IMG/VR virus record: IMGVR_UViG_3300021368_000276
Location: 1 to 23,041 of that record
Length of the DNA stretch: 23,041 nt
Direction: 5' to 3' (one strand)
Origin: a virus
The notes under the pieces were generated by a model. It ran no database searches, was not told where the DNA came from, and saw nothing but the letters and a program-made list of their open reading frames with translations. The position numbers were made by a program, and so were the translations under genes. Numbering within the stretch: the stretch's first letter is position 1; each line of letters opens with the position of its first letter. This document shows, piece after piece, positions 8,607 through 22,602 of this stretch.

Positions 8607-9097
8607 TATGTTAGCGTAAAGTCTAGTTGCCTTCCATTATTTAGACGCTCAAACTGAAACAGACCTTCCTCTGGTTCTTTGCCCCATTGGAACTTACCTG
8701 TCTCAATATCATATCCTGTATCACGAGAGCGATAGAAGACACCATTAAATTGGATCTCAGATACTACTCTCGTATTTCTCAGAATACATTCGTCTTTAAC
8801 TTCACCGAACCACCATCCATCATAATATCCCCATTGTAAGTCGCAGGCAGGTTTTGCATCTGCTTTGTTGATGGCATGTGTGATAACAGTATGCTCATCT
8901 AGATATTCACAAAAGATATTGTAATGACGGTATGGATCGTCTTCTGTTTGGTAATTATACCATTGTTTTAAGTCTAGCACATTAGCGCCGACTTTGGTAT
9001 ACAAGATGTTAATCTGTGGCCATTTACTAGGGTCTGAGAATGCTTGTTTCCTGTTGCGATAGTGCCCCAGGATCATCTTTTCAAATAATGAGGTCAT
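8606..9097 (-). CDS. cpeT: CpeT-like phycobiliprotein lyase relative
   Basis: The 163-residue product follows the CpeT/CpcT pattern: GHYRNRKQAFSDP near residues 11-23, DPYRHYN at 54-60, a Cys at 104 (KDEC), SRDTGYD at 124-130, FQWG at 136-139 and GLFQFER at 145-151. In cyanobacteria CpeT-family proteins help attach phycoerythrobilin to phycobiliproteins, and cpeT is a known auxiliary metabolic gene of T4-like cyanophages. Here it lies between a 2OG-Fe(II) oxygenase and the gp5 hub gene, overlapping the former by 17 bases and joined to gp5 by a TAATG overlap. It is therefore on the same transcript as a structural gene, probably from the sigma70-like promoter at 9723-9751. Whether it acts as a lyase or binds bilins only is unknown. 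Confidence 0.8.
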   Translation of the reverse strand: MTSLFEKMILGHYRNRKQAFSDPSKWPQINILYTKVGANVLDLKQWYNYQTEDDPYRHYNIFCEYLDEHTVITHAINKADAKPACDLQWGYYDGWWFGEVKDECILRNTRVVSEIQFNGVFYRSRDTGYDIETGKFQWGKEPEEGLFQFERLNNGRQLDFTLT

Positions 9098-9686
9098 ACC
9101 ATCCAGTCACAATAATCTTCTCTTCATTAGGTGCAGGGAGTCCCTTATGCATATGGGTCCAATCTGCTGGCCAGATCAATGTCAGACCTTTCTTTGGTTT
9201 TATCTTAGCATTCTGCACGTCAAAGAATGTCTCACCACCCTCTTCAATATCATTGAGGTAGGTCATCCATGCCATGACACGATTAGCACATTCAGGATTA
9301 GCAGAGTTCCTTTCACAGTGCAAAGCAAAAAATCCCCCATTAGGAGGATACCATTGCATATTGAAATCCTCTTGAAGATCCCAATGAATCGTACGCAACA
9401 TAGGCCAATAGTTTACATATTCCCTAGTTACTTCTGCTAGTGCATCAATATAATTTGTGACCCTCTCATCTTTATGATAACGAGGAATAGTCATATCAAT
9501 AGAGTCCTTGATGGACTTATCAACACCACCAGCGCCACCATTGGCACCACCACAGTGTCCCTCTGTCTTTTCTAAGTAGTCACACGAATGCCAGAAATCT
9601 ATGAGTCCATCACAGATCTCTGGTTCGATTATGCCACCACCAATAAATGAGTTATGGGCATCAATATCAATGTATTCACTAATCAT
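9081..9686 (-). CDS. 2-oxoglutarate/Fe(II)-dependent oxygenase (prolyl-4-hydroxylase-like)
   Basis: The 201-residue protein has the core of the 2OG-Fe(II) oxygenase superfamily: ALHCE (His123, Glu125) as the H-x-D/E iron motif, a MTYLNDIEEGGETFF segment typical of P4H-type enzymes, then TLIWPADWTHMHKGLP with a distal His (His180 most likely) and Lys190 in EEKIIVTGW as the likely 2-oxoglutarate contact, where Arg or Lys is usual. Use of Glu in place of the commoner Asp in the H-x-D is tolerated in the family. Such oxygenases are frequent in cyanophages; substrates are mostly unknown. It is the first gene after a near-consensus sigma70 promoter (9723-9751) and overlaps cpeT. Confidence 0.85.
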   Translation of the reverse strand: MISEYIDIDAHNSFIGGGIIEPEICDGLIDFWHSCDYLEKTEGHCGGANGGAGGVDKSIKDSIDMTIPRYHKDERVTNYIDALAEVTREYVNYWPMLRTIHWDLQEDFNMQWYPPNGGFFALHCERNSANPECANRVMAWMTYLNDIEEGGETFFDVQNAKIKPKKGLTLIWPADWTHMHKGLPAPNEEKIIVTGWYDLII

Positions 9687-10004: not shown

Positions 10005-11597
10005 TTATTTATTCTTAGTAACAGGTAAACTATCTCTACACAAGAATAACTGGGTAGTAATACCTGTTTTCTTGTATGTGTGGATCAGTCCTTTGATCAT
10101 ATACTTGCCAGAATAAATTCTGTCTTTCATGACCTTCTTGTTACCCTTTTGATTGGACGAAGGTAGGTCCACCTTGATTATAGCGCCTGCATACAAACTT
10201 GTATTACCTGGTACAGTAATTGTCAGCGTATGGGTATTAAGCAGTGACCATCTAGCAGCAGAGTATGCTGAGCAGATCACTGTGTTGTCAGATTGGTCGT
10301 CTGCACCACCATCAGCAGCTTGTGCTGTCTGGTGAGAATTCTTAGGTAAGATCTTAAATTTAGATCTAGTAGGTGCTTTCTCGGTATACTTCTCAACCAA
10401 CTCTTTGTCGTATGGGAATCCCTTTTCGATGGTTGATGCAGTCTCAAACAATGTAAAGATATTTGTAATAAATGGTCCACCAGCAGTTCCACCTGGTTTA
10501 CCCATCTTCTCTTGTGTTGCTGCCTGCTGCTCAGTAAGTTTCTTCTTACTACCTTCCTTTCCTTTATCCCATTTGAAACTCTGGGCGTTACCAGCAGTGA
10601 AGAATCTATCCTCCTGCTTCTCTTCTTGTTTGTAGAGTTGACTTAATTGATCAGATGATAATTGATTTAGTTTTTGACTACCATTTGCGTCAAAACTACC
10701 GTTGTTCTTGAAATACTTATCAAAGGCAAGCGAAGAGGATCCACCTGCCTGTGGTGCCATACTGTCAGTGATCTGTGGGAATGAAATACCGTAGGTTACA
10801 GTCTTATATACACCCAGTCTCAGTTTTTCTAGTTGGTTTGTTCTCTCAGGATATAGAACCTGTTCAATCTTGTATGCATCAACTGCTGGGTTATTATCAT
10901 TAACGTTCGACTGACCATAGATGAAAGTAGCAATAGACTTTTGCTCACACAAATAATCCATAGAGAGGAAGTTGTATCCATTCTTATTTTCAAAGAATAG
11001 GTATCCAGCTTGTCTCTTGCCTGCTTTACGTTTCTTGTTAGAACCTTGGTTCTTTCTAGCAACCTTGTCGGAAATATATGAAATTAGGTCAACAGGACGC
11101 CAGTTAGGTGATACACAGTTGGCATTACTGTATGGTTCGATGTTTACCTTCTTACTAGGGACATCCAACTTCTTCATCAGCATACGCTCTACGATGTCTG
11201 TGCGACCCGCCATGGGTCCAAAGGCACCAAATGCTCTGTTAGACTCGTTTGCATATATTTCTGGTGATGCACAGTGCAAGATATACATTTTAGTACGTTC
11301 TTGCTTCACCACACTACCAATCTGGTAAACACGCAAAGTGTGTTTGATAGTCTTGAATTTACCTTGATTGATTCTACCAGCAGCAGATGTCTCAAACTGA
11401 ATCTGAATCTCCTCAGAACCTCTAAGGTTATCGTCAAAGTTTACTGAGTCTATAATAGAAATATCACACCTAACAAAAGGCGAGTCAATCGACTCCATCC
11501 AGTTGAACTCACCCACCATATCAATGATGTCAGCTTTCTCGCCATCATCAAATATAATGTCAACTTTTTGCAGTTTATATGACTTAGTATAACTCAT
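10005..11597 (-). CDS. gp27-like baseplate hub protein (530 aa)
   Basis: The N-terminal 100 residues have the tail-hub pattern of gp27/gp44/VgrG-type proteins: an initial strand set (KLQKVDIIFDDGEKADIIDM), then EFNWMESIDSPFVRCDISII and LRGSEEIQIQF. The rest contains basic Lys-rich loops (NKKRKAGKR) and strands consistent with a duplicated beta-barrel hub. It is longer than T4 gp27 (about 390 residues), with a Lys/Gln/Asp-rich insertion at about 300-370. The gene is last in a coupled series after the two long tape-measure-like proteins (ATGA overlap at 11594-11597), and gp5 is encoded a few genes downstream, matching the gp27-gp5 partnership. The assignment rests on pattern and synteny; a structure search would be needed for proof. 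Confidence 0.8.
   Translation of the reverse strand: MSYTKSYKLQKVDIIFDDGEKADIIDMVGEFNWMESIDSPFVRCDISIIDSVNFDDNLRGSEEIQIQFETSAAGRINQGKFKTIKHTLRVYQIGSVVKQERTKMYILHCASPEIYANESNRAFGAFGPMAGRTDIVERMLMKKLDVPSKKVNIEPYSNANCVSPNWRPVDLISYISDKVARKNQGSNKKRKAGKRQAGYLFFENKNGYNFLSMDYLCEQKSIATFIYGQSNVNDNNPAVDAYKIEQVLYPERTNQLEKLRLGVYKTVTYGISFPQITDSMAPQAGGSSSLAFDKYFKNNGSFDANGSQKLNQLSSDQLSQLYKQEEKQEDRFFTAGNAQSFKWDKGKEGSKKKLTEQQAATQEKMGKPGGTAGGPFITNIFTLFETASTIEKGFPYDKELVEKYTEKAPTRSKFKILPKNSHQTAQAADGGADDQSDNTVICSAYSAARWSLLNTHTLTITVPGNTSLYAGAIIKVDLPSSNQKGNKKVMKDRIYSGKYMIKGLIHTYKKTGITTQLFLCRDSLPVTKNK
10006..10013 (-). promoter_or_regulatory. T4-type late promoter variant (AATAAATA) before the CP12-like gene
   Basis: AATAAATA reads leftward here, 26 bases before ATG 9980. 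It overlaps the TAA stop (10007-10005) of the gp27-like gene. One base differs from the T4 late consensus. Confidence 0.55.
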
Positions 11598-14302
11598 ATC
11601 AGTGCCTTAGGTGGAGTAGAGATATCAGACAACCAACCCATACGTGGTTGGAGGAATGCCATTGCAGGATTCTTATATTCACCACTGCCGCCAGCAACTA
11701 CTGGTGGGGGTGGTTCAACTGGCGGTGGTGGATCATCTGGAAGTTGTTGAGAAGAAACTTGGGATTCCGATTGTTTCTCTGCTGCTGCTTCTTTCTTTGC
11801 TAGTGCTGCGTCACTAATCTTTTCACCTGGTCCGTTGATGTCATCAAGATAACTTTGCATCAATTCAGCACCACCCAAGTTATTGAAGGCGGACATGATG
11901 TCAATCTTCTTGGGTTTAGCATCAGCAACAGTGCCAGTACCATCAGCAGCAGTTCCATCGGGTGCAGTACCACCCTGACCAGGAGTATCAGCAGAGGCAA
12001 GATTGAGGTTGGGATCATCATTAACCAGTGCAGCGCCGCCACGAGCACTGTTAAGTGCTTGTTTAACTTCCGCTACGCTATGTAGCGCCTTATTGCCGTT
12101 GCCATAGTAACTATTACCAGTATTAGGATCAGGCAGTGATGCCCACTCTCTTGCCAGTTCCAGCATTGCACCATTTTCATCATTATGTTGCTTCTGGATA
12201 TACTGCCATGCATATGGTCTCTTGTATTTGATAAGACCAACACCTAATTTATCTTGGAGACTCTTGTCATACTTTGCTTCCTTATCAATGTTCATCTCCT
12301 TCACAATATATTTCATCGTGTCGGGAATGATCTGATAACGACCAGCAGCAAACAACTTACCAGATGACTGTTGAGACATAACCTCACCGACAGTCATATC
12401 AGTCAGGTTCTTACCTAAGATTTCAGACGCATTATGAGTGCTACCAACAATACGACCACCAGAAGTTCCTTGGTTCATAGAGTTATATCCACCCTCGCCA
12501 GATGCAATGAAGTCCAACAGACCACCTGCTGCCATTCTCTTCTTATTACACCATGTGCATCCTTTGACGAACCCACCTTTTGCTTTACTTGCCGTCTCTT
12601 CCATGTCACCAATATAAGATCCCATAAGATCAGCACCACCAAGGTTCTGGAATACCTTACCAATGTCAATCTTTTGAGGACCAGTTGATGCATCAGTACC
12701 TCCCGAAGAATTGGAGGTAGATTTACCCATGGGTTCTTTAACTACGTGGACCTTATCTTGTCCACCACTCTTCAATATCTGAGACTTATTGGCAACTTCG
12801 CGTGCCATGTCTTCAATACTTCTCTGACTCTCTGGTTTCTTCCAATAGTCAGGATTGCCACCAAGCATGTTGACAGACATGCCAACACCTTTCTTAGCAA
12901 GACCAAAGAGAGTAGGATCCATTGTCTTGTTAAGACCCAGCAGGTTCTTACCTGCGTCGATCATGCCACCCAGGAACATCTGGGGAACTTCACCACCCTT
13001 AGCGAATGGCATAGGAAGACCAAATCCAGAGCGAGATGCCTCTGCTATTCTTGTGTTAGTGAGACCTGGATTACCTCTGGTTGCAGGAGTGTCGAATGGA
13101 ACAACGAATGCTTTTCCTACACCACCACCTGCTGCCTTTGTTGCAACATACTCTGTGCCATGACCAATGAATGCAGTAGACCTACCACCATCCAGCGATA
13201 CAGGATACCCAGACTGAGGTCCCTGGATCCAACCACCAGCAGCGAACTGTGGTAGAGGACCACCACGAGCAAATTCACCAAATCCCAACATGTCGGCACT
13301 GATGGGAGCACCAGTCATGCCACCAGACTCTCTGATCTCGTCTGCCTGAGACTTGTTGGGATCGTCTGGATCCTCTATGACTGCTGTACCATCCTGATTA
13401 GCGTTGACTGCTGCAACAGCAGTACCAACAACAATAGCGCCAGCACCAAGGGCGAGCATACCACCAAGACCCATGCCCTTGACGAATGCCATGAGACCTT
13501 TAATCATGCCACCGATGCCTCGGAAGAGACCCATGAGCATCTTCTTCAATCCACCACCCTTCACCAGTTTCATGATGACACCGCCAGCGGCGAGACCAAA
13601 CTTAGCGAGGGCAACTGGTGCAAATATCGCACCTAATACAGTAACAAATTTAAGTAGACCAAATAGTCCCTTAAAACTTAATGGATTCTCTAAAAACTCT
13701 ACCAGTCCTTCAAGACCAAAGGTCACCAAGAAATCAGCGATCTTCACGAACGCTTCGATCATGCCTCGGACAGCCTTAAATATCCTCTTTAACTTATCTT
13801 GATTCTCTGGTTTACTCATCCAGTCGAGAACCGTATAGATGAGTAGAGACTTGAAGATATTCTTCAAGAGTGCAGCAATACCTTCAAAGAATCCTAATGA
13901 TTTCTTAGCAGCACCAATAGTATTCTTGTCTTCGTCCTTATTAGTTTTCTTCTCTTGGAGTTTTTCAGACGCTCTATCTCTAACTAAACCTGCTTGTCTG
14001 ATAGCAGCACGCTTAGCATCCTTAATTCTTTTCTTTTCATCCTTGATATAATCTTCACGCTGCTTCAACATCTCCTCACGGAGTTCCATGTTCTTGAAGG
14101 TATACTGAGCGAAGTTATCCTTCATCTCCTCCACCATAATAGCGATGGAGTTTACAGACGCACCAAGACTATTGGTAGCAGAGATACTCTTTGCGAATCC
14201 AGCAGCGGGTTGAGTGACAACCTTATCTCCTACCTTAACTGTGATACCACCACCCTTAAACTTGGGTGGAGTAATCATCTTATATAATCTTGCCTGTGCC
14301 AT
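11594..14302 (-). CDS. Long helical tail-hub/tape-measure-like protein with lysozyme-like domain (902 aa)
   Basis: Residues 1-300 are helical, with a charged coiled-coil region (residues 56-120, ending in RASEKLQEKKT) and hydrophobic segments up to about 300 (GMLALGAGAIVVGTAVAAV). Residues 593-756 are a lysozyme-like domain: LLDFIASGEGGYNS with candidate catalytic Glu603, FAAGRYQIIPDTMKYIV at 651-667, and EWASLPDPNTG at 719-729, similar in layout to lambda-type muramidases. A CTWC pair (582-585) precedes it. A motif KIDIGKVFQNLGGADLMGSY (544-563) and a second copy at 798-825 flank the domain. A Pro-rich segment (855-868) lies near the C-terminus. The N-terminal half is paralogous to the 1002-residue neighbour. 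It is coupled on both sides (TAATG at 14302, ATGA at 11597). Likely cuts peptidoglycan during genome delivery; position in the virion is inferred. Confidence 0.85.
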   Translation of the reverse strand: MAQARLYKMITPPKFKGGGITVKVGDKVVTQPAAGFAKSISATNSLGASVNSIAIMVEEMKDNFAQYTFKNMELREEMLKQREDYIKDEKKRIKDAKRAAIRQAGLVRDRASEKLQEKKTNKDEDKNTIGAAKKSLGFFEGIAALLKNIFKSLLIYTVLDWMSKPENQDKLKRIFKAVRGMIEAFVKIADFLVTFGLEGLVEFLENPLSFKGLFGLLKFVTVLGAIFAPVALAKFGLAAGGVIMKLVKGGGLKKMLMGLFRGIGGMIKGLMAFVKGMGLGGMLALGAGAIVVGTAVAAVNANQDGTAVIEDPDDPNKSQADEIRESGGMTGAPISADMLGFGEFARGGPLPQFAAGGWIQGPQSGYPVSLDGGRSTAFIGHGTEYVATKAAGGGVGKAFVVPFDTPATRGNPGLTNTRIAEASRSGFGLPMPFAKGGEVPQMFLGGMIDAGKNLLGLNKTMDPTLFGLAKKGVGMSVNMLGGNPDYWKKPESQRSIEDMAREVANKSQILKSGGQDKVHVVKEPMGKSTSNSSGGTDASTGPQKIDIGKVFQNLGGADLMGSYIGDMEETASKAKGGFVKGCTWCNKKRMAAGGLLDFIASGEGGYNSMNQGTSGGRIVGSTHNASEILGKNLTDMTVGEVMSQQSSGKLFAAGRYQIIPDTMKYIVKEMNIDKEAKYDKSLQDKLGVGLIKYKRPYAWQYIQKQHNDENGAMLELAREWASLPDPNTGNSYYGNGNKALHSVAEVKQALNSARGGAALVNDDPNLNLASADTPGQGGTAPDGTAADGTGTVADAKPKKIDIMSAFNNLGGAELMQSYLDDINGPGEKISDAALAKKEAAAEKQSESQVSSQQLPDDPPPPVEPPPPVVAGGSGEYKNPAMAFLQPRMGWLSDISTPPKALI
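11828..11911 (-). repeat. Linker motif copy 3 (LGGAELMQSY unit) in the 902-aa protein
   Basis: Encodes KKIDIMSAFNNLGGAELMQS at residues 798-817 and continues YLDDINGP. At DNA level it shares a 22-base identical run and a second 15-base run with the copy at 14563-14646 in the neighbouring gene. Confidence 0.85.
12035..12526 (-). other. Lysozyme-like domain of the 902-aa protein
   Basis: Codes for residues 593-756. It opens with a helix carrying the candidate catalytic Glu603 in SGEGGYN, followed by AGRYQ (653-657) and a WASLP motif (720-724), the same order as in lambda-type lysozymes. No signal peptide precedes it, as expected for a virion-delivered enzyme. Confidence 0.75.
12599..12673 (-). 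repeat. Linker motif copy 2 (LGGADLMGSY unit) in the 902-aa protein
   Basis: Encodes KIDIGKVFQNLGGADLMGSY at residues 544-563 and continues IGDME. It lies just before the lysozyme-like domain and is more diverged than the other two copies. Confidence 0.8.
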
Positions 14303-17300
14303 TAGTTACCCGTGAGGAGTGGTGTCATCCCAGAACCTGGGGTTATGATCTGAGGTGCTGGTGTTGTTGCACCAAACACTTTCTTAGTGAGGATCATGAC
14401 GTTGTTGCTTCCACCTTGTAAATCTTCTTCACGTTGCTGAGAACTCTCAGACTGTGATTTTAGTAGTTCACTCTTTCTATTTAGTGCGTCTTCTTCCTGT
14501 TTTATCTGTGCTGCACTGGCTCCACCACCAGCAGACACCGTGCTACCACTACTTGTTTGAGAAGGACCGTTAATATCTTTAAGGTAACTTCCCATCAATT
14601 CAGCACCACCCAAGCTATTGAAGACATCCATGATGTTAATCTTCTTGGGTTTTGGTGGTTGCGTGTCAACCGCCTGATCATTCGTCTTAGGAGTGCCATC
14701 AGGATTTGTAGCACCATCACTGGTGTTACCTGATGCATCATTAACTAATGGTGGAGAATCTCCGTACTTAGCATTAGTGTTGATAGACCTAGGTGCCTTC
14801 CACATGTACATATCATTAGGTGGCATCTGGTTATTAAAGATGCCAGGAGTCATTCTGTAATACTTACCAGGACCATCAGTCTTGTTTGCAGAACTGTTAG
14901 TCTTTTTCCAAACTCCACCTATGCCAAGTTGCCCGAATGGGTCATTTACGATCCACCCGTTATCGTCGTAACCAACCAAGAGACCCCAGTGACCACTGCC
15001 TTTGTACTTAAATCCTAGTGGTACTGGATATCCAGCATCAATCTCTTGTTTTAATACCTTATGTCCAAATGCACCAACTCTAACACCAGAGGTGTTAACA
15101 CCAAAATCTTTCAGTGCCTTCTGTTGCGGTGCTGCATTAGTTGAGTCACCATACTTCTGTCTTACTTCATTATATTGCTCTGATGATAGAGGTTTCTTAG
15201 TCAGATAACTTGTCCACATTGCCATAGTCGTGGAGTAACACTGAGTGTCACCTCTACGACCAAACTTATCATTCTTGTTTGCTCTCTGGTTCAAGTAAGG
15301 AACATTGGCGAGAACCTTACCACCTTGTGCAAGTTCTTGATCCCCTTCGCCTTCTTTCTCACCAAATCCCAGCATATTCATCAGTTTACCGATGAGTTCG
15401 CCAAGACCAGGTAACTTAGATAGTTGACTATCTAATTGACTCTTCAATCCACCAAGACCCAGAGTATTGATCAGTGCATTCTCACCATCTGCTAATGCTG
15501 GAATGAAGTCTCTGGCGAATAGGTATCCATCAAGGAACATCGATGCCACGTTAGTAGCACCAGCAGTTGCAAGACCAGCAATATCCAGAACACCTGAGAT
15601 AGATTCCAGCAGACCACCAACACTATCACCAGCAGCGAAGCGATCATATGCAAATGCTAGGTTGACGACACCACCAATAACAGGAAGAACAGCGGCAGCT
15701 CTCTTACCTAATTTACCACCAGCAGTGGCAACATTAGTAATACCTTTCTCTGAGAACAGTTTGCCTACTTTGTCATAACCAGGGATCTTCTGCAATCCCT
15801 CCATCAACTTTGCACCAACCTTATTCGCTTGCTCTATGATTGGCTCAACGAATGGTTGGACCTTAGCGACAATCTGTTCCATGAAGAACTTCTTCGCCTT
15901 GGTGCCGAGACCATCAACAGTCTCAACTGCAAAGTTCTTGATACCAGTACCAAACTTTTGGGCAGTAGCAGTGGTTGCTTCCCAGGCACTCTTCATGCCC
16001 TTGTTAGCCCAATTACCAAACTTTATTGCTTTATCGCCAATAAAATCAACACCTGCCTTAGCACCAGTCTTCAATCCCTCAACAGTATTGCTACCTGCTC
16101 TTTGAAGTTTCTGCCACCAATTTAGTTTCTTGGGTGCTTTTGTAGCAACATCAGTCGCTGTTTCTCCAAGGTCTACTGCTGTATCTACAACCTTAGTTGT
16201 TGTCTTGGCAGCATCACCAACGTTATCTACATTCTTGGCAACATTATCTACAACATTCTTAGGTGTGTTGTCAGGTAAGAGATCCAGTGGATTAGGGCAC
16301 AAACCACCCATGAGACCACCAACCAGTCCTCTCCTGCCGCGTGGACGACGGTTGCGACGACGACGGTTGTTGTCTCTACCAAACCTTCTGTCAGCAGCAT
16401 CCCTACCGTAACGTCTCTCGTATCTCTCCCTAGATCCTGTTCTACGCTTACGTCCATCAACATCAACATCAGGACCATCAAGACGACGACCATCGCGGTC
16501 GCGGTCTGGTCGCATTCCTTGTTTGTCTGCTGATGAAACTGCTTTACCAAGTCCACGCATGAACTTGACATCACCAATAAGTTTCCAAGGCATTAGGACC
16601 CTGGAAGCAGCCCAAAGTGCAGCAAGACCCCCTACAAGTTGTAGGACGCCAAACATTTGTTCAAATATCCTGGCAACACCAGTCTTCTCGGATTCTCCAA
16701 AGATATTTGTGATGCCCTTCATCACAAGGTCGATACCAAGACCTGCTAAGGCACGACTAAACGTCCATATAGCAGAGACAAATCCGAAGACCTTCTTTAA
16801 TGCTTCTCTATTTTCTTCTTTGCTTACCCAGTCCAGCAACTTCATTGCCAGAAGCGGTGCCAGAACCTTCATCAGCATAGCGCCGAGAGAGTTCAGGGGT
16901 GATAGCAGGTTCTTTAAGAACCCAAACTTACCCTTTTCTTTCTTTGCTAGTTTCTCCCCTTCTTTCTTCTTCTGTGCAGGTGCTTTCTGCTTCTCTTGTA
17001 ACTTCTCTGATGCCTTATCCTTCGCTCTTCCTTTCTTTCTACCTAAAATGTCCTCTTGCGCTTCGATGATAGAGACTTTATGCTTGTGCTCTTTCTCATC
17101 GATTTCTTTCTCACGCTGTAACGAATCCAGTTCAAATTCCGTATGAACCTGTGCGATCTCTTTGAAATCTTGTACAGCAACTCCCAAATACGAAACAGCA
17201 CCACCCAACCTATTCTTCGAGAAGACCTCGGTCCTGATTGCTTTCCCGAGGTCATCTTGCCCAGTGCTAGGTGCCTTTACGCTGATATATTTTCTTAGGG

Positions 17301-17310
17301 TTGCTGCCAT
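14302..17310 (-). CDS. Long helical tail-hub/tape-measure-like protein with C39-like peptidase domain (1002 aa)
   Basis: Residues 40-130 form a charged coiled coil ending in KASEKLQEKQK; 135-245 are hydrophobic helices, with LLDWVSKEENREALKKVF at 158-175 matching the paralogue at the same positions. Residues 268-328 are a striking Arg/Asp-rich low-complexity stretch (GRDNNRRRRNRRPRGRR). Residues 350-650 are amphipathic and Ala/Gly-rich, tape-measure-like. Residues 665-820 match the papain-like C39 peptidase pattern: VPYLNQ, Cys691 in GDTQCYSTTMAMW, His774 in GSGHWGLLVGYDDNGW and Asp790 in VNDPFG. One copy of the LGGAELMGSY linker (889-916) follows. In T4 the tape measure is gp29, near gp27; here this gene and its paralogue lie next to a gp27-like gene and after gp26, consistent with that role. 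It probably cleaves peptide cross-links during infection, but this is inference. Confidence 0.85.
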   Translation of the reverse strand: MAATLRKYISVKAPSTGQDDLGKAIRTEVFSKNRLGGAVSYLGVAVQDFKEIAQVHTEFELDSLQREKEIDEKEHKHKVSIIEAQEDILGRKKGRAKDKASEKLQEKQKAPAQKKKEGEKLAKKEKGKFGFLKNLLSPLNSLGAMLMKVLAPLLAMKLLDWVSKEENREALKKVFGFVSAIWTFSRALAGLGIDLVMKGITNIFGESEKTGVARIFEQMFGVLQLVGGLAALWAASRVLMPWKLIGDVKFMRGLGKAVSSADKQGMRPDRDRDGRRLDGPDVDVDGRKRRTGSRERYERRYGRDAADRRFGRDNNRRRRNRRPRGRRGLVGGLMGGLCPNPLDLLPDNTPKNVVDNVAKNVDNVGDAAKTTTKVVDTAVDLGETATDVATKAPKKLNWWQKLQRAGSNTVEGLKTGAKAGVDFIGDKAIKFGNWANKGMKSAWEATTATAQKFGTGIKNFAVETVDGLGTKAKKFFMEQIVAKVQPFVEPIIEQANKVGAKLMEGLQKIPGYDKVGKLFSEKGITNVATAGGKLGKRAAAVLPVIGGVVNLAFAYDRFAAGDSVGGLLESISGVLDIAGLATAGATNVASMFLDGYLFARDFIPALADGENALINTLGLGGLKSQLDSQLSKLPGLGELIGKLMNMLGFGEKEGEGDQELAQGGKVLANVPYLNQRANKNDKFGRRGDTQCYSTTMAMWTSYLTKKPLSSEQYNEVRQKYGDSTNAAPQQKALKDFGVNTSGVRVGAFGHKVLKQEIDAGYPVPLGFKYKGSGHWGLLVGYDDNGWIVNDPFGQLGIGGVWKKTNSSANKTDGPGKYYRMTPGIFNNQMPPNDMYMWKAPRSINTNAKYGDSPPLVNDASGNTSDGATNPDGTPKTNDQAVDTQPPKPKKINIMDVFNSLGGAELMGSYLKDINGPSQTSSGSTVSAGGGASAAQIKQEEDALNRKSELLKSQSESSQQREEDLQGGSNNVMILTKKVFGATTPAPQIITPGSGMTPLLTGN
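14563..14646 (-). repeat. Linker motif copy 1 (LGGAELMGSY unit) in the 1002-aa protein
   Basis: Encodes KKINIMDVFNSLGGAELMGS at residues 889-908 and continues YLKDINGP, C-terminal to the peptidase-like domain. Nearly the same DNA sequence occurs at 11828-11911. Confidence 0.85.
14851..15318 (-). other. C39-like (papain-fold) peptidase domain of the 1002-aa protein
   Basis: Codes for residues 665-820, with Cys691, His774 and Asp790 in the order and spacing of bacterial C39-type and related cysteine peptidases. All three candidate catalytic residues are intact. Confidence 0.7.
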
Positions 17311-17495
17311 TAGAGTGGTACACTACCGTTTTGTTTGTTCATACGTCGCTCTTCTTCCTGCAAGTAAGCAAGTAGAAGGTTGACATAAACATCACGTTCC
17401 CATGGCATCATATTTTCTAGTTCAGTCAAACTGTACTTGTGATGCTGCATCAATGCAAAGTTAGTCTTATAATGATTCATAAGACTATCGTGCAT
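17310..17495 (-). CDS. Short ORF after gp26, likely expressed as a -1 frameshift extension of gp26
   Basis: This frame encodes a 61-residue helical segment: MHDSLMNHYKTNFALMQHHK, then YSLTELENMMPWERDVYVNL and LLAYLQEEERR. The E-L-E-x-M-P-W-E-R-x-x-Y-x-x-x-L pattern is typical of the second (T-like) half of phage tail-assembly chaperones. Its reading frame is -1 relative to gp26 and stays open through the end of gp26. The ATG at 17495 lies 5 bases beyond the gp26 stop and has no ribosome site. Together with the slippery heptamer TTTTTTC before the gp26 stop, this points to a gp26-extension fusion of about 297 residues, as in lambda gpG/gpGT. Independent initiation at ATG 17495 or TTG 17498 cannot be excluded. 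The end couples to the 1002-residue gene by TAATG. Confidence 0.8.
   Translation of the reverse strand: MHDSLMNHYKTNFALMQHHKYSLTELENMMPWERDVYVNLLLAYLQEEERRMNKQNGSVPL
17462..17487 (-). other. Stem-loop downstream of the slippery site
   Basis: TAGTCTTAT and ATAAGACTA are exact inverted repeats of 9 bases separated by an 8-base loop. The stem is AT-rich, so its stability is modest. It lies within the short ORF, 19 bases after the heptamer, longer than the 5-9 bases usual for a stimulator. Confidence 0.6.
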
Positions 17496-17528
17496 CAATG
17501 CTACCCGAAAAAACTTGCTAGACCCTCC
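17479..17528 (-). promoter_or_regulatory. Candidate programmed -1 frameshift cassette (SD-like, slippery heptamer, hairpin)
   Basis: Reading leftward: GGAGGG (plus 17523-17528) is followed after 9 bases by TTTTTTC (17507-17513), positioned in the gp26 frame as AG-T TTT TTC and then GGG TAG stop. About 19 bases further on is a 9-bp perfect stem with an 8-base loop (17462-17487, partly outside this span). Slipping by -1 enters the downstream short ORF. The three elements and their order match the dnaX-type frameshift signal and the frameshift in tail chaperone genes. Confidence 0.75.
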
Positions 17529-18202
17529 AACAACACTTCATTCTCTACTCCTGTTTTAGGATTAGTAACGAAGATAGTGTGGGATAGTTTTGGCATAGTT
17601 TCAAAGAACTTCTGAATCTGAGCAAACTGCTCATTGTTCATTTCACCGATGAATTCAGTTGCTTCTTTCTTAGTGAAAGAATCATAGATTTCATCACCTT
17701 CATATACTTTATCAATACAGTCAGCAGCAAGTGCGAACACGTCATCAAGTGATGGATCATCAGTCATGTTACGTTCAACGAAAACATCCAGAGCAGGATA
17801 TTTCATTTGAATCTTGACATCATCACTGAGTTTGACAATCTTTTTGTGATCCTTAGGAACGTTGACTTCAACCGCATTAAGGTCAAGTTCAACATCTACC
17901 TCAGTTTCACCGTCATCTTGACAAACGACTTTGAATTCGCTGACCTCACCGACCGCCTTAGAACGGATCTGCAAGAACAGATATTCCAACTCAAATGTAG
18001 GGAGATCATCAACAGATTTTAGGTCTGTGCAGTTTTTAAGAATAGTCTTAACTGCTTTGATCATCTCTTTCTCCTTCTGACTCTCCATGGCGAGGTAGAG
18101 GAGTTTCTCTTCTTTTACGAGGAATGGTCGGAAATTGACTTTCTGACCACTAACAGGCAGAGTACAATCATACTCTGGCACAGCAAGTTTTGGTAAAGGC
18201 AT
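17501..18202 (-). CDS. gp26: gp26-like baseplate hub/tail chaperone protein (233 aa)
   Basis: The 233-residue protein fits the T4 gp26 family: MPLPKLAVPEYDCTLPVSGQ and VNFRPFLVKEEKLLYLAMES at the start, then ILKNCTDLKSVDDLPTFELE and YLFLQIRSKAVGEVSEF. The second half is acidic with helices and ends EGLASFFG. In T4, gp26 is needed for hub assembly; related proteins in other phages act as tail-assembly chaperones for the tape measure. Here it is followed by a -1-frame short ORF and the two tape-measure-like proteins, which supports the chaperone view. A late promoter (18224-18231) lies 21 bases upstream of ATG 18202. No strong ribosome site is visible in the short leader. Confidence 0.85.
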   Translation of the reverse strand: MPLPKLAVPEYDCTLPVSGQKVNFRPFLVKEEKLLYLAMESQKEKEMIKAVKTILKNCTDLKSVDDLPTFELEYLFLQIRSKAVGEVSEFKVVCQDDGETEVDVELDLNAVEVNVPKDHKKIVKLSDDVKIQMKYPALDVFVERNMTDDPSLDDVFALAADCIDKVYEGDEIYDSFTKKEATEFIGEMNNEQFAQIQKFFETMPKLSHTIFVTNPKTGVENEVLLEGLASFFG

Positions 18203-18223: not shown

Positions 18224-18231
18224 TATTTATA
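18224..18231 (-). promoter_or_regulatory. T4-type late promoter (exact TATAAATA) before gp26
   Basis: Exact TATAAATA reading leftward, 21 bases before ATG 18202. Bases 3-5 are the TAA stop codon (18229-18227) of the gp54-like gene. Confidence 0.8.
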
Positions 18232-18967
18232 CACTATATCGCTGAACGTCTGGGTTACCCGAACCTTCAACTCGTAGTCGTACTTCTTCCCAGGTAAAGG
18301 CAGCTTGTTTCTGCTTATGTTTGAGAGTCTTAGGACTAACAGGATCCATTCTATATCTCTCAAAGTAAAACTCAACTTCCATGATCAGTAAACTCGTTTG
18401 TTCGTTATCGAGAGTCATAGTGCTGACATTTACTGGAAATGCACCATATATTTGATATACAGCAGTTGACTGCATTGGGTTCAATGCGCCTTTATGCTCT
18501 TTATCCTTCTGATCGTTGTTGTCGTTGATAATTCTGAAATTGGCACCGCTTTCCCATTTTACAATAGACATGTCGGTGACGTAATCGTCATAGAATCCAA
18601 CAGTATTGTCAGAATCAGAAGCAGCGTAGTGCATCCATCTCTCAAAGAACTTTCTATGACTTTGATCCTTAGTTACAAGGAACGATACATTCATAGAGGA
18701 GTTCGTCTGTCCAGTAGCGAAACGACGAATCATACCAAAGTTATTAACCTCACCAGTGGTAACTGCTCTACTAGGTACAGTCACTGAATTAGCAAAGTAA
18801 TTGACATTCTGAACAAACTCTCTGGTCTCAGAATTTATCCTACCAAAGTCACTTGCCATAAAGACAGGAGGTGGCAGACGGAATTCCCACAGATTACTCG
18901 TAGCAGGTGCCAACCTGTTAGTGGCAATCTCTGCCCTGAATTGATTAAATCTATTAGGATTTCCCAT
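18227..18967 (-). CDS. gp54: gp54-like baseplate tail-tube initiator (246 aa)
   Basis: The sequence has the tail-tube fold pattern shared by gp19, gp48 and gp54: an N-terminal LWEFRLPPPVF strand, VNYFANSVTVPSRAVTTGEV, then a long helix (TKDQSHRKFFERWMHYAA) and a final strand set YQIYGAFPVNVSTMTLD with LLIMEVEFYFERYRM. Its length is between tube protein and T4 gp54 (about 320). The start at 18967 (MGNPNRFNQ) gives a TAATG overlap with the gene upstream; a longer in-frame start five codons earlier is less likely. In T4, gp54 sits on gp48 and starts tube polymerisation. Here gp48 is on the opposite strand about 0.9 kb away. Confidence 0.8.
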   Translation of the reverse strand: MGNPNRFNQFRAEIATNRLAPATSNLWEFRLPPPVFMASDFGRINSETREFVQNVNYFANSVTVPSRAVTTGEVNNFGMIRRFATGQTNSSMNVSFLVTKDQSHRKFFERWMHYAASDSDNTVGFYDDYVTDMSIVKWESGANFRIINDNNDQKDKEHKGALNPMQSTAVYQIYGAFPVNVSTMTLDNEQTSLLIMEVEFYFERYRMDPVSPKTLKHKQKQAAFTWEEVRLRVEGSGNPDVQRYSV

Positions 18968-19434
18968 TAGAGTCTGGACCAAATAAAACTACTAGGCACA
19001 TCTATCCTCATACCTGCTCTTCTCATTGTAAATTGTTCTAGTGGTAGAGGAGTCATATCGATAAGGTCTTCACGCCGAACAGTTTTGATGTTACTAGCAT
19101 TTGACATAAAGTATTTATGATGGCAACGGGAAGGATATGAAACAGACCCACCACCCCATGACTTTGCTACGCTTCTACGTGCATCTGGTCTAAGATAATG
19201 CAAGTTTCCACCTGAGAACTGTAAGTTCTGCATATCTATGTCAGTAATCAGCACCATAGGGAATCTGTCATAGAAGGGTAGTTTCTCAGTAGCAGCAGCA
19301 TATGCATAGTAGATTACATCACCCACCTTGAAACCTGTGGAGTCTTGTAACCCATAGAATGCCTGAGAGCGATACCAGTCCTTAGACTTCTTCTTCCCTC
19401 CTGCTAAATCTTTGATATCAGTAAAAATACTCAT
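18967..19434 (-). CDS. Conserved-looking phage protein of unknown function (155 aa)
   Basis: The product has a basic N-terminus (KDLAGGKKKSKDWYRSQAF) and a central motif GDVIYYAYAAATEKLPFYDR followed by FPMVLIT and NLHYLRPDARR. The pairing of LPFYDxFPMVL with a later LHYL-P is familiar from many T4-like and other marine phages, but I cannot attach a T4 name with confidence. The motif suggests a small beta-barrel. It lies between gp4 and gp54 with ATGA and TAATG overlaps, so it is likely made late with structural genes. It could be a virion or connector-associated protein. Confidence 0.8.
   Translation of the reverse strand: MSIFTDIKDLAGGKKKSKDWYRSQAFYGLQDSTGFKVGDVIYYAYAAATEKLPFYDRFPMVLITDIDMQNLQFSGGNLHYLRPDARRSVAKSWGGGSVSYPSRCHHKYFMSNASNIKTVRREDLIDMTPLPLEQFTMRRAGMRIDVPSSFIWSRL
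19112..19119 (-). promoter_or_regulatory. Possible late promoter (CATAAATA) upstream of gp54
   Basis: CATAAATA reads leftward within the 155-residue gene, about 145 bases before ATG 18967. It has one mismatch to TATAAATA and lies inside coding sequence (His-Lys-Tyr codons), so it may be chance. Confidence 0.4.
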
Positions 19435-19865: not shown

Positions 19866-20910
19866 GGCAAGTAATAGATTGATGTATCCGCTAATCGCCC
19901 CTAGGGGTGGAGTGGGTTCTGATGGAGCCATATCGAGGAATTCACGATATCCTACTAAGGTAATGGATTACCTTAAATTCACCATCTATGAGTCAGATGA
20001 GAATTCTAACTCATATACTTATGCAGGTAAAGGCAAGGGTGGTGGCGATAAGAAAAAGATTTATAAGACAGTATACCTCTATTTACCACATCAACTAACT
20101 GAAACTTTTAATACGTCATACGATAGAGCAGCACTAGGTCCTTTTGGATCAGCAGCAGTTGATGCTGTCTCTGGTAGAGGCGACATGGATACATTTACCA
20201 AAGCAATCCAAGATGGTGCTCAATCGGGTAAGTCACAGGTTGCATTTGGTGCTGTTTCTGGTATCTTTAATGGTTTGTCTGGTGCTATTGGAGTAGATGG
20301 TAACATCAGTAAGAACCAACTGGCAGCACTAGCGAAAGGTAAGGTATTCAACCCATATGAAGAAACCGTCTTCCGTGGTGTGAACTATCGTCAGCACAGT
20401 TTTGACTTCGACATGGCACCTCGTAATGGTGATGAAGCAAGTGCAATTAGAGATATTATTCTAACTCTTAGAGATTCGATGTTGCCAGGTACATCTGGTA
20501 AAGCTGCCGAATGGTTGACTGTACCTAGATTCTTCCGTACTGAGATTGTTAGATATACTCCTGGTAAGTTAGGCAATCAGAGTGGTAATAAAATTAGCAG
20601 ACCTCAAACTCTTGCAACTCTGTTGACCTATCCTGTCAACATGGTGCTGACTGGATTACAGGTAAACATGACTCCTTCTGGGCAAAACAATTCCATTAGA
20701 CGTGGTAATGATCTCGAAGACTACGGTCCTGCAATGTACAAAATGTCCCTAACCTTCGACGAGACTGCATTCATTACTCGCGGTATGTACAACACCAAGG
20801 GTAAGAAAACAGGAAACGAGCAAATCCAACCTCCAAATAGTTTCACCTTACCTGATGACGCTTTCCCATCAATCGGAACTGGCGACACTAACTACTTCGA
20901 CTTCACCTAA
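19864..20910 (+). CDS. gp48: gp48-like baseplate tail-tube cap/junction protein (348 aa)
   Basis: The protein shows the gp48 pattern: YPLIAPRGG at the start, then DYLKFTIYE at 34-42, VYLYLPHQLTETF, a Gly/Ala-rich region near 87-150, and NPYEETVFRGVNYRQHSFDF with MAPRNGDEASAIRDIILTLR, the strongest tail-tube-junction motif. Residues after 215 contain PRFFRTEIVRYTPG. Length is close to T4 gp48 (364). It begins on the same CATG as divergent gp4, with a weak GAG element upstream; ATG at 19882 or 19963 are in-frame alternatives, but neither has a better ribosome site. A late promoter is at 19793-19800. Its stop overlaps gp53 as TAATG. Confidence 0.85.
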   Translation: MASNRLMYPLIAPRGGVGSDGAISRNSRYPTKVMDYLKFTIYESDENSNSYTYAGKGKGGGDKKKIYKTVYLYLPHQLTETFNTSYDRAALGPFGSAAVDAVSGRGDMDTFTKAIQDGAQSGKSQVAFGAVSGIFNGLSGAIGVDGNISKNQLAALAKGKVFNPYEETVFRGVNYRQHSFDFDMAPRNGDEASAIRDIILTLRDSMLPGTSGKAAEWLTVPRFFRTEIVRYTPGKLGNQSGNKISRPQTLATLLTYPVNMVLTGLQVNMTPSGQNNSIRRGNDLEDYGPAMYKMSLTFDETAFITRGMYNTKGKKTGNEQIQPPNSFTLPDDAFPSIGTGDTNYFDFT

Positions 20911-21896
20911 TGCCTTACTTCTCTTACCTACCTGACGTTAAAGTCCGTGTTTCGTCGTTCCGTAATAACAACGTCGAACCTTTTGTCGTCGCCAAGAATA
21001 TCTTCCGTCGTTGTAAACTGGTAGAGGATATCCAAGATGCTATCTTGGGTTTCCAGCAGTATACTGTCATGAACAATCAAAGACCTGATCAGGTCGCCTT
21101 TGAAGTGTATGGCGACTCTGAACAGGACTGGGTGATCTTCCTCTGTAATAACATTACCAATATGTACAATGATTGGCCAATGTCAGAGAGGGAATTGACT
21201 GATTATGTAAAAACAAGGTATTCAGGTCGTCTGAACGATATTCATCATTATGAAACTAATGACATTAGAGACGATAGTGGTAGACTTGTCGTAAAGGCAG
21301 GAATTGAGGTAAATGCCAATTATCGTTATTATACTCCTCAGGGCACTTTGGTCCCAAATGCTTCTATCCCTATTTCTAACTGGGAATACGAAAAAGCAAT
21401 AAATGACCAGAAATCGAATATCTGGTTACTAAGACCCGAATACGTAGAAACGTTTATTGACGAATTTGAGCAACTTATCGCATATGCGCCAAATGACGAA
21501 ATTGAAGATGTAAGCGGTATTAAGTTTACTCCTAATGCTGTCAATGAAACGTTCGTAATTAAGAAGATTGATTATTCCACAGAATATGGCAGAACAGCAG
21601 GCGTTCAGTTTGCTTCTGGTCTTGAATTGGTAAACAAAGTCGTTACTACAACTCAGACGGAAAGTGGAGCAACTGTTACTACTTCTGTTTCTCAATCTGA
21701 GACCACATCATCTTCTGGCGTTAACAGCAGCGGTGTCGAAGCAGGTACACAGGATGCCTCTTCAACCAGTGGTTCAGGAGATACGTCAAGTTCGTCCAGC
21801 GGTTCTTCCAGTGGAAGTTCCAGTGGATCGAGCAGTGGATCCAGTAGTTCTGGATCTAGCGGTTCCTCAGGTGGAGGAGGATACGGAGGATACTGA
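20910..21896 (+). CDS. gp53: gp53-like baseplate wedge protein with Ser/Gly-rich tail (328 aa)
   Basis: The first 240 residues fit gp53: MPYFSYLPDVKVRVSSFRNN at the N-terminus, RPDQVAFEVYGDSEQDWVIF at about 57-76 (a LysM-like segment known in this family), then ITNMYNDWPMSERELTDYVK and SNWEYEKAINDQKSNIWLL. From residue 245 the sequence becomes Ser/Thr-rich and from about 280 almost pure Ser and Gly with a GGGGYGGY end, which T4 gp53 (about 196 residues) lacks. gp53 helps join wedges to the hub in the T4 baseplate. The gene starts on the gp48 stop (TAATG), and its last 30 bases are antisense to the small minus-strand gene at 21867-22052. Confidence 0.85.
   Translation: MPYFSYLPDVKVRVSSFRNNNVEPFVVAKNIFRRCKLVEDIQDAILGFQQYTVMNNQRPDQVAFEVYGDSEQDWVIFLCNNITNMYNDWPMSERELTDYVKTRYSGRLNDIHHYETNDIRDDSGRLVVKAGIEVNANYRYYTPQGTLVPNASIPISNWEYEKAINDQKSNIWLLRPEYVETFIDEFEQLIAYAPNDEIEDVSGIKFTPNAVNETFVIKKIDYSTEYGRTAGVQFASGLELVNKVVTTTQTESGATVTTSVSQSETTSSSGVNSSGVEAGTQDASSTSGSGDTSSSSSGSSSGSSSGSSSGSSSSGSSGSSGGGGYGGY
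21783..21893 (+). repeat. Ser/Gly-coding low-complexity repeat in gp53
   Basis: Imperfect short repeats of AGT/TCC/GGA-type codons encode tandem SGSS-like units and a GGGG end. Synonymous variation between copies indicates selection for the Ser/Gly protein sequence rather than a simple DNA expansion. Confidence 0.8.
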
Positions 21897-22052
21897 TTCT
21901 TCCTTCTTTAACTTGAAGTAAAGTTTATAAAATCTATCACACATCTCTCTGAGGACCTCATGGTCCTCGGTTAGACCGTATTTCTTTGTATATGTACAAG
22001 AACCCTCCATCTCAGAGATGAGAAGGAGGATTTCAACTGCTGAGGGTTTCAT
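21867..22052 (-). CDS. Hypothetical small protein (61 aa)
   Basis: The product MKPSAVEILLLISEMEGSCT, followed by TYTKKYGLTEDHEVLREMCD-like charged helix and a Ser/Val end, has no recognised domain. It begins in an ATGA overlap with the glutaredoxin-like gene, so translation is likely coupled. Its 3' end overlaps the 3' end of gp53 by 30 bases on the other strand, so its last ten codons are antisense to gp53's Gly/Tyr tail. A strong hairpin (21949-21970) lies inside it. Confidence 0.65.
   Translation of the reverse strand: MKPSAVEILLLISEMEGSCTYTKKYGLTEDHEVLREMCDRFYKLYFKLKKEESVSSVSSST
21949..21970. other. Strong hairpin between the convergent gene ends
   Basis: GAGGACC and GGTCCTC form a perfect 7-bp stem around a 4-base loop (TCAT), extended by one G-T and one C-G pair. 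It is GC-rich and lies 53 bases after the gp53 stop. No U-rich run follows on either strand, so it is not a classic intrinsic terminator, but it could slow or stop convergent transcription. Confidence 0.6.
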
Positions 22053-22291
22053 ATGAGACCCTTTTCTTGTGCTAGATGTAGCAAATCCTTCAAATGCCCT
22101 ACATGTTTTGCTCCAAGGGCAATTTGAGGATATGTGGCGTCTGGTCCGAATTCGTTCTCAAACGCTCTTTGGTCAAAATGCTGATTTAGGCGATATTCGA
22201 GAAATTCGCCTTCTAGTGATTTTAAGAGTTGTGCTGCTCTTTCACATTCTTGTGATCCATTACTATAAATTACTGCTGTCTGTGGGATCAT
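22049..22291 (-). CDS. Glutaredoxin-like protein with a degenerate active site (80 aa)
   Basis: The start at 22291 (MIPQTAVIYS) is set by the TAATG overlap with the upstream stop. The fold pattern is glutaredoxin: AVIYS strand, a helix after the active-site loop (CERAAQLLKSL), GEFLEYRLNQ, then TYPQIALG with the cis-Pro (Pro55) and a C-terminal helix (HLKDLLHLAQEKGLI). The expected C-P-x-C is replaced by SQEC (Ser13, Cys16), so the usual nucleophilic N-terminal Cys is missing. The GG-x-DD-L motif is reduced to VGHLKDL. A monothiol thiol-transferase or a non-redox binding role is possible. It ends in an ATGA overlap with the 61-residue gene. Confidence 0.75.
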   Translation of the reverse strand: MIPQTAVIYSNGSQECERAAQLLKSLEGEFLEYRLNQHFDQRAFENEFGPDATYPQIALGAKHVGHLKDLLHLAQEKGLI

Positions 22292-22602
22292 TAGTCGCGT
22301 TGTCTCCAATCGTCGGGTTTGTCTCTTTTGAACCAGTCAACAATTTCGTCTGCACCATCGAACCCCGTTCTGTGATTAGATGGGTCGGGGTCGCCTAATC
22401 CCATCTTATTCATAAAATCATCCATACTGCCCTCCTCAATCCCTTTGGATTGCCGACGTGCTTTCTGCAACCAGTCACGAGCGAGAGTGTGACTTTTAGC
22501 AAGTTTTTCTGCCCAGATCATATCTGAGAGAGGCACCTCCTCGTTATTTGCAATGCAACGACAAATAGATTCGAGTCTGAGGCGATAAGCAGTTGAGAGC
22601 AT
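22291..22602 (-). CDS. Hypothetical protein (103 aa)
   Basis: The product starts MLSTAYRLRLESICRCIANN, continues with a helical EEVPLSDMIWAEKLAKSHTL, then ARDWLQKARRQ, and ends with a Gly/Asp/Pro linker and DEIVDWFKRDKPDDW. It seems to contain an N-terminal helical domain and a short acidic C-terminal helix with conserved-looking aromatic residues. I do not recognise a family. Four bases separate its start from the previous stop, and its own stop forms TAATG with the glutaredoxin-like gene. It is one of four likely cotranscribed small genes. Confidence 0.75.
   Translation of the reverse strand: MLSTAYRLRLESICRCIANNEEVPLSDMIWAEKLAKSHTLARDWLQKARRQSKGIEEGSMDDFMNKMGLGDPDPSNHRTGFDGADEIVDWFKRDKPDDWRQRD

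Follow-up and report, generated by a model that had tools for sequence, protein, structure and literature searches.

We propose, at a probability of roughly 0.92, that gp26 in the window, by which we mean the whole 23,041-nt stretch analysed from an uncultivated marine cyanobacterial phage (IMG/VR record IMGVR_UViG_3300021368_000276), is the short form of a T4-like tail assembly chaperone whose long form is made by a −1 slip. The preliminary description of this DNA had read the gp26 end as a programmed −1 frameshift cassette, and on comparative grounds that reading is strongly supported by conservation of the heptamer and frame, missing start codons, collinearity with T4 gp51 and a chaperone-like predicted fold. 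In the proposed mechanism, most ribosomes would terminate at the gp26 TAG to give the 233-aa protein, and some, holding tRNA-Phe in both the P and the A site on T_TTT_TTC, would slip back one base, re-pairing from TTT TTC to TTT TTT, putatively aided by an upstream Shine-Dalgarno (SD)-like element and, in this lineage, by a hairpin 5 nt downstream. Slipped ribosomes would read CGG GTA GCA and onward to make a long form ending in a gp51-like domain. The long form would correspond to T4 gp51 and the short form to T4 gp26; T4 has two separate genes instead.

Direct reading of the minus strand gave ...GTG TTG TTG GAG GGT CTA GCA AGT TTT TTC GGG TAG as the end of gp26, as first described: the heptamer is in X_XXY_YYZ phase, GGAGGG precedes it by 9 nt and the −1 frame is open into the short ORF, for a predicted fusion of 297 aa in all against the 233 aa of the zero frame (Table 1). 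TTTTTTC occurs once per strand in the window, and a scan of 25 ORFs gave 16 in-phase X_XXY_YYZ heptamers; just two of these, this one included, lead into a −1 frame open for at least 55 codons.

Table 1 Features of the gp26 junction and neighbouring genes in the window
Feature	Position	Strand	Basis or remark
gp26 / short chaperone form (TAC-N-like), 233 aa, zero frame	17501..18202	−	PF12322, phrog_150, predicted fold
gp26 stop TAG	17503-17501	−	
Slippery heptamer T_TTT_TTC, X_XXY_YYZ phase	17507..17513	−	Sequence; conservation in gp26 ends
GGAGGG, internal SD-like element	17523..17528	−	9 nt 5′ of heptamer; putative stimulator
Two-tier hairpin	17447..17501	−	Starts 5 nt after heptamer; fold z −5.39; putative stimulator
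Hairpin outer stem, 11 bp	17501-17491 / 17457-17447	−	
Hairpin inner stem, 11 bp	17487-17477 / 17472-17462	−	
−1-frame extension, 65 codons (RVALMHDSL...), gp51-like C-terminal domain	17310..17507	−	phrog_634, alignment, T4 gp51 collinearity
TAA stop of −1 frame	17312-17310	−	
Short ORF, 62 aa	17310-17498	−	phrog_634 3.6e-29
Tail-tube-like gene, upstream	18227-18982		phrog_45 2.6e-41
1002-aa downstream protein, presumed tape-measure-like client	14302..17310	−	phrog_790 (named endolysin) 2.8e-68
902-aa second large tail protein	11594..14302	−	Partly homologous to the 1002-aa protein
CpeT-family protein	8606-9097	−	PF06206 2.8e-11; between tail genes
2OG-Fe(II) oxygenase	9081-9686	−	8.8e-12; between tail genes
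gp53-like wedge protein, long Ser/Gly-rich C-terminal tail	20910-21896	+	PF11246 1e-11

Relatives were gathered by gp26 protein similarity, independently of the junction, and 193 of 195 sequences were counted, leaving out T4 (L081, no hit in that search) and the truncated L193; the window is one of the 193, among which are also several near-duplicates and some IMG/VR copies of isolates. An in-phase TTTTTTN was found in 189/193 gp26 ends, window included, a count that does not represent independent trials because the sequences are related and near-duplicates are among them. The heptamer was TTTTTTC in 175 ends, TTTTTTT in 11, and TTTTTTA and TTTTTTG in one each; Rhizobium phage RHph_I1_18, counted within the 189, has TTT TTA AAC eight codons 5′ of its stop. 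The −1 extension spans 56-69 codons in 188 of these 189 ends, and in the other the contig ends within it. TTT TTC GNN TAG closes gp26 in all of the first 80 loci (gp26 identity 49-100%), and TTTTTTC is also present in 3/3 isolates added later. Conservation of the heptamer and −1 frame among relatives, part of the alignment check suggested in the preliminary description, is very broad.

Codon choice at the slip site was analysed after removal of four non-canonical sequences (L186, L093, L094 and L095), which left 189 ends that clustered into 131 representatives at 95% and 111 at 85%. The junction Phe-Phe is encoded by TTT TTC in 122/123 representatives (95% clusters), compared with just 2/137 Phe-Phe pairs elsewhere in gp26, and all 123 have T as the last base of the codon before it (72.8 expected). 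A Phe-Phe C-terminus could yield the heptamer by chance, with genome compactness accounting for the overlap, and Phe-Phe near the C-terminus is itself conserved; this explanation is extremely improbable against the 103/103 FF-ending representatives (85% clusters) that carry TTTTTTY in phase, where 200 synonymous randomisations of the same 103 averaged 38 and never exceeded 52. The same Phe-Phe-Arg product would arise if RNA polymerase slipped on the T run and inserted one U. T runs are slip-prone, and HTVC008M-like Pelagibacter phages have a run of eight T, but six T are usually too few for polymerase slippage, and the run is six T then C in 175/193 ends. Conservation of codon phase, together with the SD-like element and, in places, the hairpin, points to ribosomes and not polymerase, and we hold the transcriptional route to be very unlikely.

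The short ORF could also be a separate gene (gp51), as annotated, with its own ATG or TTG or with termination-reinitiation at the gp26 stop. Among 17 heptamer-bearing annotated isolates, a separate short CDS is listed in 15, none at all in two, and one joined to gp26 in none. An ATG lies within 20 nt after the stop in 77/126 representatives, including the window, where it begins 5 nt after the gp26 stop, and in some Vibrio, Stenotrophomonas, Rhizobium and Ackermannviridae relatives it overlaps the stop. (This analysis used 126 of the 131 representatives; one was truncated and four, whose extensions look normal, lacked the search motif.) The first −1-frame ATG is, however, more than 45 nt beyond the stop in 47/126, and 26 of the 34 far-ATG representatives (of 102 with TTT TTC, 85% clusters) lack ATG, GTG and TTG throughout the first 16 −1 codons. 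Those 16 codons encode conserved protein, typically RIALxHxSLENYY, with variation greatest at the −1-frame third position, and at the position of the window's short-ORF Met, aligned relatives have Leu, Ala, Ser or Phe as alternatives. The ATG of the short ORF had been described as lacking a ribosome site, which is true: anti-SD pairing before the first short-ORF ATG (mean −0.96, 126 representatives) is no better than at random sites (−1.39, 655). The argument from it is weak, as gp26's own ATG scores little better (mean −1.87, 130). Independent initiation or reinitiation was rejected as the main route on the missing start codons and this weak pairing test. A separate gene would also leave the frozen TTT TTC codons unexplained, and T4 gp51 is the full fusion. 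We judge a separate gene unlikely and favour programmed frameshifting.

Of the putative stimulators of that frameshift, the SD-like element drew mixed support. Its Glu-Gly codons lean towards SD-like sequence: the upstream Glu codon is GAG in 63/96 Glu-Gly representatives, versus about 30% in gp26 bodies, and SD-like strings at Glu-Gly have a mean z of −0.86 (102 representatives) versus 0.03 in 510 control windows. A random synonymous version is at least as SD-like as the real one 38% of the time on average. The stem-loop of the preliminary description is present, but its 9-bp size and spacing of about 19 bases described the inner part of a two-tier hairpin that starts closer to the heptamer (Table 1). 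The 82 nt from the heptamer onward fold at −25.6 kcal/mol (z −5.39; 0/200 shuffles as good). Across the family, downstream folding relative to synonymous versions has a mean z of −1.87, with 46/102 representatives below −2, versus a mean of −0.68 and 57/306 windows below −2 in controls.

A downstream structure conserved family-wide was unsupported, RNAalifold giving almost no consensus for 21 sequences (−0.88 kcal/mol). When the pairs of the window's structure were imposed on the 21 sequences, 78.6% of cells were paired (0/500 shuffles as high), six pairs were changed on both sides (6/500 as high) and the covariation score was matched by 3/500; for further pair types, 496/500 shuffles were as high. 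Compensatory support for the window's hairpin in these sequences appears modest, and as a lineage-specific element the hairpin would not be a conserved part of the frameshift signal.

Four of the 193 ends lack an in-phase TTTTTTN: the L186 contig, the T4-type gp26 of pzk-kv8, phiA8-29 of the Ackermannviridae, and Vibrio phage K476, which is unclassified. The L186 gp26 is 99% identical to that of HTVC008M but has an early stop, probably an indel error. No gp51-like extension was seen for the 208-aa T4-type gp26 of Marfavirus (L094). Four further Ackermannviridae (Ag3, Ds23CZ, May and PST-D24; L211-L214) were added after the count of 193 ends, and none has the heptamer, which makes 0/6 with phiA8-29 and K476; L210, which duplicates phiA8-29, and L196-L205, loci of T4-type gp51, stand outside the junction counts. 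The preliminary description had set relatives that lack the heptamer but keep both ORFs against its own reading, and such relatives exist in form: all five Ackermannviridae and K476 keep the −1-frame C-domain. Their junctions are ATT TTC (Ag3, Ds23CZ, May and PST-D24), CTT TTT (K476) and CTT TTC (phiA8-29), not X_XXY_YYZ, and in May and PST-D24 the C-domain has neither an early start codon nor an annotated ORF. A search with K476 gp26 as query returned no matches. The (A/C)TT_TTY site of the Ackermannviridae should not slip in tandem, and the unvarying −1 frame suggests a different route, perhaps one-tRNA slippage. With a slip site essentially frozen in most of the T4-like phages sampled and stimulators that vary between lineages, we tentatively suggest that the short:long ratio is tuned by lineage to the tail proteins, of which the window has two that are large and partly homologous, and that the Ackermannviridae may extend this scheme with a single-tRNA variant.

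Family assignments place the window's gp26 and short ORF with T4-like gp26 and gp51 (PF12322, phrog_150 and phrog_634). gp26 matches the T4_baseplate family PF12322 (1.4e-70) and phrog_150 (baseplate hub; 6.4e-77), and the short ORF, besides its match to phrog_634 (baseplate hub assembly catalyst), weakly matches the C-terminal end of phrog_150 (6.3e-5). T4 gp51 carries both PF12322 (residues 1-201, 3.9e-52) and phrog_634 (residues 147-246, 1.2e-23), and its architecture is therefore what a frameshift would yield here; T4 gp26 matches PF12322 and phrog_150, with no phrog_634 match in the profile comparison. When a profile of 18 fusions was aligned with one of six T4-type gp51 proteins, the match ran through the junction over 231 columns (probability 99.1; E 1.4e-18, from a single comparison). 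Judged by these profiles, the predicted fusion is collinear with T4 gp51, and T4 gp26 is the counterpart of the short form. T4 and Aeromonas phage 25 have separate, divergent gp26 and gp51 genes for the two forms, whereas the window has one gene with a −1 frame. Within the phage collection, the window's gp26 is nearest to its counterpart in Synechococcus phage S-SZBM1, at 75% identity. C-domain matches were found in 576 phage records, of which 462 bear the name Synechococcus, Cyanophage or Prochlorococcus. A gp51-like domain is open in the −1 frame yet unannotated in Aeromonas phage AS-zj (L090 2193-2360) and Synechococcus phage S-H9-1 (L208 1201-1368).

An AlphaFold2 model of gp26 (pLDDT 87.4) was compared with 751 PDB chains. 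The top entry was the HK97 tail assembly chaperone 2ob9 (Z 7.5, rmsd 4.4, 83 residues; 13% identity, chain of 107 residues), followed by YqbN, which we take to be a phage chaperone (PDB 3klu; Z 6.7, rmsd 4.1, 84 residues; 8% identity, chain of 119 residues), with the next best at only Z 2.2. Both matches fall on gp26 residues 1-86, at Z values below 8 that can reflect a common arrangement, and residues 87-233 lie outside them. The gp26 N-terminal domain is thus predicted to resemble a tail assembly chaperone fold; this is moderate evidence, since Foldseek alone gave no significant PDB match (none at E up to 0.001; HK97 chaperone E 1.2). The T4-type gp51 model has a similar order of elements, then C-terminal helices, and no tail chaperone was among the best 50 of its 59 matches, for which only Foldseek's chains were aligned. 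A sequence search for solved relatives gave four chains within E 1, the best at 0.15, and none is named as a tail protein. The viral structure library gave 60 matches at E up to 0.001; of the best 50, 30 are named, 16 of these as baseplate or baseplate hub.

Tail assembly chaperones of T4-like phages were reportedly identified by Vladimirov, Gautam and Davidson (Virology 2022, 566:9-15), who are said to have found the frameshift conserved in several T4-like groups, with T4 using genes 26 and 51. Passages in the PRFect paper (PMC10885494) and in the paper on Pakpunavirus Adele (PMC12846349) cite that work for T4-like chaperones (TACs), with separate genes in some, and a passage in the latter cites it for the poly-T slip sites of T4-like TAC-N genes. 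Given the work of Vladimirov et al., a gp26 frameshift is not new as a kind, and this locus may already be known outright; the literature searched, in which that study was represented by citations of it, contained no statement of this frameshift for cyanophages. The present analysis adds codon-level selection tests, the missing-start evidence, a lineage-specific hairpin and six heptamer-less relatives (five Ackermannviridae).

Like the gp26 junction of the window, the dnaX cassette has an SD-like element about 10 nt upstream and a hairpin a few nt downstream of its heptamer, A_AAA_AAG, and the slip site of lambda is G_GGA_AAG, unlike that of the window. The gp26 junction differs from dnaX in its U_UUU_UUC, in a hairpin limited to this lineage and in function. 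As a passage of PMC5009743 describes it, lambda G/G-T is like the arrangement proposed for the window in that the −1 shift lies near the 3′ end of the chaperone gene and the two forms share an N-terminus; the G:G-T ratio of about 30:1 is given there as important. gp26 is longer than lambda G, and the likeness rests on arrangement, not sequence similarity. Vandenendeviridae and Andersonviridae are other phage groups whose tail chaperone gene, in myophages, has a conserved −1 site with a T run (GTTTTT) according to part of PMC12846349, a likeness to gp26 by description only. In cyanophages, the short 'gp51' probably forms the end of a frameshift product and is not a gene of its own, which links T4 gp51, essential for tail assembly according to a passage of PMC3004832, to a recoded gene in marine phages. 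Frameshift rate and tuning become directly testable in cyanobacterial hosts.

The short and long forms probably chaperone the large tail protein or proteins encoded downstream, which are presumed tape-measure clients from their position and from relatives so annotated. A chaperone gene of the G/G-T kind would be expected between the tail tube and tape-measure genes; the tail-tube-like gene (phrog_45) is upstream of gp26, and the 1002-aa protein on the other side matches phrog_790 and not a tape-measure family. It contains a C39-type peptidase domain at residues 669-791 (Peptidase_C39_2, 1.9e-9), and BLASTP finds the 902-aa protein similar to it towards both ends (E 2e-15). The HTVC008M gene that comes second after the short ORF matches tape-measure families. 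Identification of the 1002-aa protein as a tape measure was not adopted, as its BLASTP match to part of the HTVC008M protein is unconvincing (E 0.046). Elsewhere in the window, a glutaredoxin-like ORF (22049-22309, minus strand) has an in-phase AAAGGGT at codon 83 of 87, followed by 63 open −1 codons, probably a mere overlap with the next ORF.
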